A DNA stretch of 43,393 bases. It comes from Aestuariivirga sp. (lineage in GTDB: Bacteria > Pseudomonadota > Alphaproteobacteria > Rhizobiales > Aestuariivirgaceae). This document shows, one piece after another, positions 3,850 to 43,393 of this stretch. Each line of letters opens with the position of its first letter. Positions within the stretch are counted from its first letter, which is position 1. Under the pieces are notes generated by a model. The model saw only the letters and a program-made list of their open reading frames with translations, did not search any database and was not told the DNA's origin. The DNA is taken from contig JAUXUN010000006.1 of NCBI GenBank assembly GCA_030680855.1, positions 1 through 43,393 of the forward strand. Reading direction: 5' to 3'. Position numbers and translations under genes: made by a program.

Positions 3850-3930
3850 AATTTGCGTATCCCTGTCACGGCGCGGCATATCTGAATCCTATCCATCGTC
3901 ATGTAAAGTGCATAATTATGAATTTATCCC

Positions 3931-3960
3931 TTGACAGTTATATTCCTATGTACTAGGAAT
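3931..3960 (+). promoter_or_regulatory. Promoter box and palindrome before structured repeat copy A
   Basis: TTGACA at 3931-3936 is a consensus -35 box. It is followed by a perfect 19-bp palindrome, ATTCCTA-tgtac-TAGGAAT (3942-3960), about where a -10 element and operator would lie. The second repeat copy also has TTGACA and ATATTCCTA at the same offset. No single -10 hexamer is convincing. Confidence 0.5.
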
Positions 3961-3965
3961 GATTT

Positions 3966-4320
3966 GTCCATCCCAGAAGGGGTCTCGGTCGCGACGGTGA
4001 TCATAGATGGGGTGGATGCGGCGCCTGCGGGTTTGATGAAACGTTCATCAGGCACCCGGGAGCTGACGGCTCGGCTCCTTGGATACTACGGTCCAAGCGC
4101 CTTAAATGGCTAAACAACCCTAGCGGAAAACCTCAGACACCGTGCGATCTAGGGCTCTGCAAGCGCCAGCCGGACAGCAAAAACCGCCGCAAAAGCGTGG
4201 GCGCGGTTTGCGTCAACCGCCGGACCACACGACCGGCATTTTCGCGTAGGCTGCGCTCACGCAACCCTTCGCTTCCCGCCTGCCCCGGAAACGGCATAAC
4301 CGTTTCCACCAGGGGCGGAG
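3966..4320 (+). ncRNA. Candidate structured RNA, copy A of a duplicated element
   Basis: From gtccatccc at 3966 to about 4190 it matches 43173-43393, with long identical blocks and scattered substitutions. Stems visible in order: TCCATCCC with GGGGTGGA (one wobble); CGGGT/ACCCG enclosing TGATGAA-acg-TTCATCA; CTTGGA/TCCAAG around 4078-4096; CCCTAG 4118-4123 with CTAGGG 4149-4154; AAACCGC 4181-4187 with GCGGTTT 4203-4209 enclosing CGC-AAAA-GCG; GCCGG/CCGGC near 4220-4236; and GGAAACGG-cataa-CCGTTTCC (4287-4307) inside CTGCCCC/GGGGCGG. Stem substitutions between copies keep pairing. A 60-codon frame crosses it but its substitutions do not look coding. I do not recognise an RNA family. The 3' end is uncertain. 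Confidence 0.5.
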
Positions 4321-4366
4321 CTGTGCCTGATGCTGATTGATACGTGAATCGCACTTCATCCTCGAT

Positions 4367-4509
4367 CCTCGCCCCCAATGCAATTGGGGGAGAGGTGGCG
4401 CGGGCAAAGCCCGTGACGGAGAGGGGGGGCGTGCAGGAGTGTCTCCGGCCGGCACCCCCTCTCCGTCTGCTTCGCAGACACCTCTCCCCCGCTATCCGCG
4501 AGGGCGAGG
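4367..4509. repeat. Large palindromic repeat of a second type
   Basis: CCTCGCCC at 4367-4374 pairs with GGGCGAGG at 4502-4509. Internal arms are AGAGGTG/CACCTCT and ACGGAGAGGGGG/CCCCCTCTCCGT, plus local hairpins such as CCCCAATgcAATTGGGG and GTCTGcttcGCAGAC. It resembles dispersed intergenic repeats common in Hyphomicrobiales but differs from the element at 29-148. Confidence 0.7.
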
Positions 4510-12104: not shown

Positions 12105-12300
12105 CTGCCCCCTCTGTCAGAGAACCTGAGAGTTTTCATCCAAACCGTCACTCCGACACGGCCAGACTTGCTCCTACGGTGAGGGGTGTTGCTCCCCTGC
12201 TCTCCAGAGTTCCAAAACGCGGCGGTCCTTTTGCCTGAGAGTTTCCGGGGCGGTTGCTCCTTCGGCGCCGGGGTTTCCCCCGGTCTCTCCCGCTTGGCGC
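12105..12300 (-). promoter_or_regulatory. Tandem glycine riboswitch upstream of gcvT
   Basis: Read on the minus strand, two similar aptamers follow each other. The first begins gcgggagag and includes ctctcaggcaaaaggaccg, a glycine-aptamer signature. The linker carries aactctggagagc. The second repeats the pattern with ggagcaac, aactctcaggttctctgacagag. The element covers most of the leader between the promoter at 12320-12347 and the start of gcvT. In this class glycine binding turns the gcv operon on. No clear intrinsic terminator is seen, so control may be at translation. Confidence 0.92.
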
Positions 12301-12319
12301 TTTACGCGAACTGTGCGGC

Positions 12320-33233: not shown

Positions 33234-33346
33234 CCTCATCCCCCTTCGGCCACCTTCTCCCATTCTTCGAATGGGAGAAGGCAATAACCATTTAGCGCCT
33301 TCTCCCGTGCTCTTGCATGGGAGAAGGTCCCGAAAGGGGATGAAGG
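33234..33346. repeat. Long palindromic repeat, copy 3
   Basis: cctcatccccttcggccacc at the left pairs with the right end (ccgaaaggggatgaagg), with the same inner ccttctccc/gggagaagg hairpins as copies 1 and 2. The stem bases differ from copy 2 on both sides (ccggcctgtcgg versus ccccttcgg), so the pairing was kept. It lies between convergent genes. Confidence 0.8.
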
Positions 33347-42096: not shown

Positions 42097-42157
42097 TTTT
42101 GATGTGTATGCTCGAGGCTACGGTCCAGAAATTGAAGCAATCGCTATTCTAAAGTAG
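42041..42157 (+). CDS. Overlapping 38-residue frame or lost C terminus
   Basis: Frame MRFQIIWELVNLNG, then TINSSFDVYARGYGPEIEAI, then AILK. It overlaps the end of the previous gene in a different frame and reads like real protein. Either it is a tiny coupled gene or it is the original C terminus of the 247-residue protein displaced by a frameshift. It also overlaps the stop of the convergent MarR-GNAT gene. No strong ribosome-binding site was seen. Confidence 0.3.
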   Translation: MRFQIIWELVNLNGTINSSFDVYARGYGPEIEAIAILK

Positions 42158-43060
42158 CAGCTCCCATGTCTCACCCACAAGGTCCTTGCCGAAGCTGTGG
42201 TGCGGTTCTTCTTTCATGAGTTTGTAGCCCTCGTTCACATAAAGCTTGCGCGCTGCCGTGAGTGTGCTTTGGGTCCACAGCACAATGCGCTTGTAGCCTG
42301 CCTCTCGCGCGAAGGCGGTGCATTCGGAAACCAGTTTTTTGCCGAGGCCGAGGCCGCGGGCTTGCGGCTCCACATAGAGCAGCCGGAGCCTTGCGGTTTC
42401 CGCGTCTTCCTTCATCAGGTAGACGCTGCCCAGAATAGTGCCGTGACTCTCGGCTATCCAGGCGCGTTCGTTCACCGTGTCGTCGCGCCCGACAAACTCA
42501 GTAAGTATTTTCGCAACCAGCGCCTCGTAGGTTTTGTCCCAGCCATATTCCTGTTCGTAGATCAGGCCCTGCCTGCTGGCAACAAGCCCCAGATCGCCAA
42601 CCCGGTCGCGCCGCAGGATGTAATTGGGTGCGGCGGCGGTTTTTCCCAGAATACCCTGAATTGTTTCCATGGCCCCCAGCAAGGCGTTCACCGCGCCGGG
42701 CGGCAGGTTGGCAATCATGCCTGTTGCTGCCTGGGATGAGCGCCGGTCGAGTTGGTGGAAAGTCGTACGCCCCTTTTCCGTGAGGGAGAGATGAGAGCGG
42801 CGCTTGTCGGCCGCGTCGGTCTTGCGCGAAATCAGGCGCTTCTTTTGGAATGAACGCAGCATGCGGCTGAGATAGCCCCGGTCGAGGTTCAGTTTTTCGC
42901 CAATATCGGTGGCGGACATTTTCGGGGTCTGCCCCAGTTCATAGAGAATGCGCGCTTCGGCCAGGGAGAATCCGGATTTCAGCAGGTTTCCGTCGAGTAC
43001 GCCAATTTCCCGCGTGTAGAATCGGTTGAAGCGGCGGATGGCAGCGGAGGCATCGGGCAT
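42149..43060 (-). CDS. MarR-type regulator fused to a GNAT acetyltransferase
   Basis: 303 residues. Residues 1-135 are a MarR winged helix (ARILYELGQTPKMSATDIGE, then LNLDRGYLSRMLRSFQKK and the DKRRSHLSLTEKG wing). Residues 148-303 are a GNAT domain with the acetyl-CoA loop YVEPQARGLGLGKKL and a C-terminal ARKLYVNEGYKL. Such fusions act as one-protein switches in which acetyltransferase activity or ligand binding could be tied to DNA binding; the substrate is unknown. A perfect 29-bp palindrome lies 14 bp before its start, pointing to autoregulation. Confidence 0.9.
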   Translation of the reverse strand: MPDASAAIRRFNRFYTREIGVLDGNLLKSGFSLAEARILYELGQTPKMSATDIGEKLNLDRGYLSRMLRSFQKKRLISRKTDAADKRRSHLSLTEKGRTTFHQLDRRSSQAATGMIANLPPGAVNALLGAMETIQGILGKTAAAPNYILRRDRVGDLGLVASRQGLIYEQEYGWDKTYEALVAKILTEFVGRDDTVNERAWIAESHGTILGSVYLMKEDAETARLRLLYVEPQARGLGLGKKLVSECTAFAREAGYKRIVLWTQSTLTAARKLYVNEGYKLMKEEPHHSFGKDLVGETWELLL

Positions 43061-43122: not shown

Positions 43123-43153
43123 TAGGAAAATAGTACTTGACACTATATTCCTA
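43123..43153 (+). promoter_or_regulatory. Promoter and inverted repeat before structured repeat copy B
   Basis: TAGGAAAATAGT at 43123-43134 and ACTATATTCCTA at 43142-43153 are complementary at 11 of 12 positions. The TTGACA -35 box (43137-43142) lies in the 7-bp spacer and the start of the right arm, so a bound repressor would block it. A TAATAT follows at 43152-43157, but its spacing to the -35 is too short to be the -10. Confidence 0.6.
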
Positions 43154-43172
43154 ATATGGCATGTCTGTTCCT

Positions 43173-43393
43173 GTCCATCCCGGAAGGGGTCTCGGTCATG
43201 ACGGTGATCAGTGATGGGGTGGATGTGGCGCCTGCGGGTCTGGTGAAACGTTCATCAGGCACCCGGGAGCCGGAGGGAAGGCCCGTGGATATTACGGTCC
43301 ATGCGCCTTAAATGGCTAAACAACCCTGGCGGAAAACCTCAGACACCGTGCGATCCAGGGCTCTGCAAGATCTTCCCCGAGGCAAAAACCGCC
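43173..43393 (+). ncRNA. Candidate structured RNA, copy B (runs off the window)
   Basis: Matches copy A from gtccatccc to aaaaaccgcc. The same stems are present: TCCATCCC/GGGGTGGA; CGGGT/ACCCG around TGGTGAA-acg-TTCATCA (a G-U replacing A-U); CGTGGA/TCCATG (a G-U replacing U-A); and CCCTGG 43324-43329 with CCAGGG 43355-43360, where copy A has CCCTAG/CTAGGG. A 51-codon frame from ATG 43156 (MACLFLSIPEGVSV...) is open but not well conserved as protein. The window ends at the first arm of the next hairpin seen in copy A. Confidence 0.5.

Follow-up and report, generated by a model that had tools for sequence, protein, structure and literature searches.

The repeat found twice in the window almost certainly represents a real RNA family that has not been described, being absent from Rfam 15 and from the literature searched. 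The window is the whole stretch of DNA analysed, 43,393 nucleotides, and is a whole contig. The helices of the RNA covary beyond both shuffled and slid controls. The initial annotation, which had proposed that the element may be an undescribed RNA, is extended here by the copy number, the spread across the order, a partner protein, a palindromic loop, and an open frame in many relatives.

The repeat unit in the window

The two copies have the same orientation and were placed correctly by the initial annotation (3966-4190 and 43173-43393), as was the TTGACA box ahead of each (3931-3936 and 43137-43142). They align in ungapped blocks at 3965-4063/43172-43270 (92% identity) and 4077-4163/43283-43369 (94%), and are 88% identical by blastn over query positions 66-289. 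A degenerate core pattern with up to three mismatches finds only these two sites in the window and none in 100 shuffles. The features of the two copies are as follows.

3917-4350, plus strand: copy 1, whole repeat unit (promoter and RNA), the extent common to copies in the host genome
3931-3936, plus strand: -35 box TTGACA of copy 1, from sequence
3942-3960, plus strand: operator-like inverted repeat ATTCCTA-N5-TAGGAAT in the promoter region, from sequence
3961-4116, plus strand: conserved 5' domain of copy 1 (covariance model R1, 143.7 bits, E 1.2e-48, the model having been trained on this copy among others)
3966-4017, plus strand: helix P1 (3966-3975 paired to 4008-4017), which closes around a G-rich run and the palindrome, from the fold and arm swapping
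3988-3995, plus strand: tip palindrome GTCGCGAC (6-mer TCGCGA), in the conserved palindrome zone
4024-4062, plus strand: helix P3, a hairpin with 12 pairs, ten of which have changes on both sides among 97 copies
4079-4096, plus strand: helix P4 with the conserved loop YAYUANGR (here UACUACGG, 4084-4091)
4195-4262, plus strand: long 3' hairpin of 21 pairs, predicted fold
4287-4307, plus strand: last hairpin GGAAACGG/CCGTTTCC, a possible 3' end signal, from the fold
43137-43393, plus strand: copy 2, truncated at the contig end (core 43168-43322)

The length of about 220 bp that was first given to the repeat reflects truncation. The repeat is present, but its true unit is about 440 bp (3917-4350) and appears shorter because copy 2 is cut by the contig end. 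Four copies in the host genome have both ends, for a total of six pairs. Five pairs share a stretch that begins at -42 to -61 nt and ends at +386 to +395 nt relative to the core start. The sixth pair shares a longer stretch because another repeat comes after both copies. The unit in genome G010 spans about -43 to +334 in three pairs. Unit ends are less uniform in the other genomes, with a median start of -105 to +15 and a median end of +209 to +408 from the core start. A REP-like repeat (CCTCTCCC/GGGAGAGG) at 4370-4500 lies 3' of copy 1 and also 3' of another copy (L005/L103), so the DNA shared by these two extends past the unit.

No common host gene lies beside the two copies, and the neighbors are those originally described. 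An HNH gene is located near copy 1 at 2470-2784 (PF01844, just over the cut-off). The ORF near copy 2 (42149-43060, minus strand) is one that we take to be MarR/GNAT. A remnant IS1595-type transposase (PF12762) at 1939-2298, about 1.6 kb before copy 1, sits between two HNH-like genes and small ORFs that presumably form a toxin-antitoxin pair.

Secondary structure and covariation

The first description held that at least four stems can be drawn, and this is the case. The sequence folds better than its shuffles, with z of -3.56 for 3966-4345 and -2.90 for 3966-4190. In addition to P1, P3, and P4, the 5' domain holds a small GCC/GGC hairpin. The long hairpin downstream varies in sequence by lineage and is a predicted fold, made without a shuffled control.

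Covariation is strong. In an alignment of 97 distinct copies, which was fitted to the covariance model and is therefore biased in its favor, the 21 model pairs form in 94.3% of cells (73.7% when shuffled; slid controls pair in 34-57%), and 397 double changes are observed against 122 in shuffles. P4 is paired in 98.8% of cells, and all six of its pairs have changes on both sides (97 copies). The A, U, A, and G of its YAYUANGR loop are almost invariant. A covariation scan over all column pairs, using 69 nonredundant rows of the model-fitted alignment, places the top eleven pairs in P3 and P4; ten are model pairs and one (82-123) is a column off. The first alignment, made with MAFFT free of any structure, has both-side changes in 13 of the 21 predicted pairs.

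P1 lies outside the covariance model and was tested by swapping arms. Its own arms score 8.64, while swapped arms average 5.42 and reach 5.92 at most (200 swaps, 69 copies). P1, P3, and P4 are thus established by covariation or by arm swapping.

Paired columns tolerate G-U far more than A-C. The ratio of G-U/U-G to A-C/C-A is 60:4 in P4 and 185:29 in P3 for 99 rows, and 39:3 and 133:25, respectively, for 69 nonredundant rows. This excess indicates selection on the RNA strand and is unexpected for a DNA cruciform.

A 6-nucleotide palindrome begins in a fixed zone of the alignment in 62 of the 69 nonredundant copies and occurs in eleven sequence variants. When roughly this zone is shuffled by mononucleotide, the mean is 15 copies and the maximum 24. 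The halves of the palindrome are adjacent, so it cannot pair inside one molecule. Its simplest reading suggests a kissing dimer, of which a palindrome is not in itself proof.

Promoter and probable status as a gene

TTGAC is present in the 70 nucleotides upstream of 62 of the 99 copies and precedes the core start by about 30 to 39 nucleotides. A CCCCGC-containing block replaces it in 24 copies, 11 have neither block, and two are too short to judge. The position of TTGAC would place the transcription start near the first bases of P1. The -10 element of copy 1 is weak (about 3954-3960), and a generic promoter and terminator scan of the window copy gives no promoter and no U-rich terminator. The TTCCTA of the operator-like repeat recurs, by eye, in the spacer of many copies. 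In L174-L183 and L195-L208, an upstream promoter-like block of approximately CTTATCCCCGCCCTCC-N-ACCTCCCnTA stands in place of TTGACA, as is the case for most copies from other families.

Of 90 scored copies, 54 share the strand of the gene that follows and 36 run against it, according to a rough ORF composition rule that missed the partner gene (described below) in at least L111, L056, L068, and L237. The repeat is probably an independent gene of its own.

Partner protein

Behind the RNA in several loci is a gene for a small, basic, arginine-rich cysteine protein with the pattern C-x4-C-x5-C-x6/8-C. A total of 24 partner genes were identified, nine of which are seeds of the search profiles. 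In 23 of the 24, an RNA on the same strand precedes the gene by 137-503 nt, and the remaining gene is near a contig end. Among the 15 that are not seeds, the RNA is present in 11 of 11 assessable cases within the genus and in three of three outside it.

Within the genus, a six-sequence profile has 19 matches, corresponding to 18 genes in 15 of the 37 genomes. For seventeen of these genes the RNA model matches the same strand 137-491 nt ahead of the gene, and the 18th (G007:C344) sits about 130 nt away from the end of a contig. Six were profile seeds. Of the other twelve, eleven can be assessed, and each of the eleven has the RNA.

Outside the genus, a wider profile of 14 finds six genes in five of 22 RNA-bearing genomes, each with the RNA 200-503 nt upstream. 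Three of the six are seeds and three are not, with two of the latter being weak matches (E 0.002 and 0.006). One weak partner match (E 0.006) was found in 22 genomes without an RNA match by DNA search; none of these control genomes is among the order-wide model matches, though perhaps not all were drawn there. The partner gene is absent from all six genus genomes without the RNA. The profile also finds nothing in 16 of the 31 RNA-bearing genus genomes and in 17 of the 22 outside the genus, where missing partners may reflect divergence or real absence.

The smallest partners are open frames of 61-69 codons. Four partner proteins have no Pfam match (E up to 1 and 10), and NCBIfam gives two matches far under the cut-off (TIGR02559 and TIGR00673). 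The partner therefore has no recognized HUH (Y1_Tnp) transposase domain, which would be expected of a REP/RAYT system. The predicted model of the protein is of low confidence (pLDDT 55.6), so that RNA binding is a guess from its basic and cysteine residues. Of 21 partner loci scanned, seven are followed by a tRNA-Lys(CTT) gene, two of these seven being a single locus of one genome. This shared neighbor suggests that part of the partner loci were inherited in place.

The presence of an RNA ahead of every assessable partner gene would suit a cis-regulatory leader of that gene, with solo copies being stray duplicates that act on nearby genes. At several loci, an upstream frame also ends in an ATGA that overlaps the partner start. 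We consider this reading unlikely, as copies are far more numerous than partner genes. A leader would be expected consistently upstream of a gene and on its strand, yet 36 of the 90 scored copies run against the gene that follows. The copies nevertheless retain the fold and, for the most part, a promoter.

Open frame within the RNA

A Shine-Dalgarno box and a start codon are present inside the P1 loop in 44 of the 99 copies (examples, L106:3033-3195 and L111:2412-2574). Read from that start, 43 of these copies meet no stop for at least 90 codons and the last meets none for 89, while the other frames are open in six and four of the 44. The 44 cases are not independent of one another, since the copies share descent and the core, being fixed, itself puts stops in the other frames. 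The remaining 55 copies, including both copies in the window, lack the box or start by the pattern used.

A codon-like substitution pattern, named in the initial annotation as an argument against an RNA, was sought and none was found. In 22 frames, for the best 40 (closest) of 231 pairs, all three codon positions change about equally often, and most of the changes are non-synonymous. The open-frame relatives thus have no synonymous or third-position excess, and five of their proteins have no Pfam match. The open frame is kept though its amino acids are not conserved, and a pure RNA reading leaves this frame unaccounted for.

One way to account for it is a gene family for a small protein of about 90-130 residues (MSTASR... 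PWALRPKRLQWL...), translated from the AGGAGG box and an A/G/TTG start, with the RNA structure as a side effect. The bias toward one open frame is what such a family would produce. It is a poor explanation overall and quite improbable, given the substitution pattern, the lack of Pfam matches, the pairing of positions that covary across the frame, and the 55 copies without box or start.

Copy number and distribution

In the host genome (3.73 Mb, 85 contigs), a 431-nucleotide query has 26 blastn matches, many of which are incomplete and located at contig ends; covariance model R1 has 22 matches there. Draft assemblies can break at such repeats, so an RNA family of this kind can hide at contig ends. 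The DNA search matched 15 of 61 genomes, all in the host genus. With model R1, 31 of the 37 genus genomes match, with 1 to 22 matches each.

Across the order, model R1 matches 30 of 397 genomes in 13 of 141 sampled genera (E ≤ 0.001), nine genera being below 1e-6. This search used stricter filters and scored seven candidates per genome, and its copy numbers are therefore lower bounds. Twenty-one of the 30 genomes are outside the host genus (best E 6.4e-18), including seven with E between 1e-4 and 1e-3 only. Model R2, used in a class-wide draw of 385 genomes, has three matching genomes outside the order. One of these has two copies (E 3.4e-8 and 4.9e-8), and the other two have E of 1.5e-4 and 7.3e-4. 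In our judgement, up to about 20 copies per genome across 13 of 141 genera, together with a dedicated small protein, is unusual among bacterial RNAs of unknown function.

A pattern scan gave 30 stretches, 28 of which are labeled Rhizobiales, Hyphomicrobiales, Alphaproteobacteria, or just "bacterium". The other two, L066 (Methanobrevibacter) and L069 (Clostridia), were taken to be chance matches, scoring 14 and 12.4 bits with model R1 and lacking a similar upstream part. Neither entered the RNA alignments, nor did L073, where the 5' part of the RNA differs or is cut. The plasmid and viral-contig collections searched contain no match to the family.

A quick tree of the 97 distinct copies needs 18 changes among its twelve genome labels, as opposed to 55.9 when shuffled and a minimum of 11. 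This clustering by genome indicates that copies multiply within genomes or are homogenized there by gene conversion. A copy upstream of a gene that we take to be LepA-like recurs in four genomes (G010, G017, G029, and G034), suggesting that some copies are old. In a search for empty sites, the right flank of one copy matched relatives without the element and the left flank did not; no clean empty site with both flanks was found. The unit has fairly sharp ends in the host genome, with no terminal repeats or target duplication shown for it.

The first description also proposed an independent or mobile RNA element. An independent, multiplying RNA gene fits the strand split and the clustering by genome; its mobility is putative. 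Another reading is a DNA repeat of the MITE or REP type, with hairpins that act at the DNA level during transposition and with incidental transcription. It would match the many similar copies at contig ends, the clustering, and the long 3' hairpins, but is made quite unlikely by the strand-specific tolerance of G-U over A-C, the nearly invariant loop bases, the kept promoters, and the host-genome copies, in which no terminal inverted repeats were noticed in an unsystematic look.

Comparison with known families

The sequence fell outside the families recognized in the initial annotation, and the window copies likewise have no Rfam 15 match at the gathering threshold. The same holds for 15 further loci, which contain only a tRNA and a serC leader elsewhere. 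When a copy from the window and a distant copy were searched at lax Rfam settings, all matches were sub-threshold and attributable to chance. No report recognizable as this family was found among those searched in open-licence PubMed Central.

The trans-encoded sRNAs of the SmelA075/SmelA099 type have several gene copies per genome in many Rhizobiales families and are built of 2-4 similar hairpin modules (PMC3927594). The RNA described here resembles them in being multicopy in Rhizobiales. It differs in its length of about 350-400 nt and its distinct P1, P3, P4, and long 3' hairpin, a separation made by description and Rfam only.

OLE has protein partners. Together with ROOL and GOLLD, it is a standalone, highly structured large RNA that forms homo-oligomers (PMC12286853). 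The present RNA is likewise standalone and highly structured. Unlike these RNAs, it has no Rfam match, is smaller, has many copies per genome, and has a different partner.

REP elements are many dispersed structured units with a single-copy RAYT transposase. The dispersed structured units here are similar, with one or two protein genes adjoining a unit, but each unit is an RNA gene of about 380-440 bp and the partner lacks a recognized HUH domain. Group II introns without an ORF exist as structured RNA copies plus a few protein-bearing ones. The present family also has many structured copies and few with a protein; in contrast to the introns, no reverse transcriptase was seen beside the copies, there is no Rfam match, and the RNA has its own promoter.

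Proposed mechanism

The family would comprise structured RNA genes that stand alone in genomes of the rhizobial order, most of them with a sigma-70-like promoter of their own. The transcript would start near P1, judging from promoter spacing, and fold into the 5' domain (P1, P3, P4, and the small GCC/GGC hairpin) and the long 3' hairpin. The palindromic tip may allow two RNAs to dimerize through kissing loops. Many genomes encode the small, basic, cysteine-rich protein behind one or two of their copies. This protein may bind the RNA, and the resulting RNA-protein particle would act in trans. The unit of promoter plus RNA appears to multiply within genomes, for which there is partial evidence above; many solo copies would then be non-autonomous offspring of an RNA-plus-protein locus.

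The full mechanism, a dimerizing RNA bound by its partner protein with solo copies spreading as passengers, is slightly favored. A bolder version is a selfish RNA-protein element of a new kind across the order. A self-dimerizing RNA and a minimal zinc-knuckle protein would drive copying of the RNA gene without a recognizable transposase, integrase, or reverse transcriptase. The RNA would also serve as an mRNA in one genus, with its frame kept open whatever the amino-acid sequence. This version is speculative and rather unlikely. The family opens a new RNA-protein system to experiment, with dimerization through the palindrome, protein binding, and the copying agent as subjects.

Other features of the window

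A second direct repeat is present at 41-129 and 33243-33331. It is 89 nucleotides in length, 88% identical, and built of CCTTCTCCC hairpins. An ordinary tandem glycine riboswitch is located at 12112-12302 on the minus strand (Rfam RF00504, two matches) and is followed by what are presumably glycine-cleavage genes.
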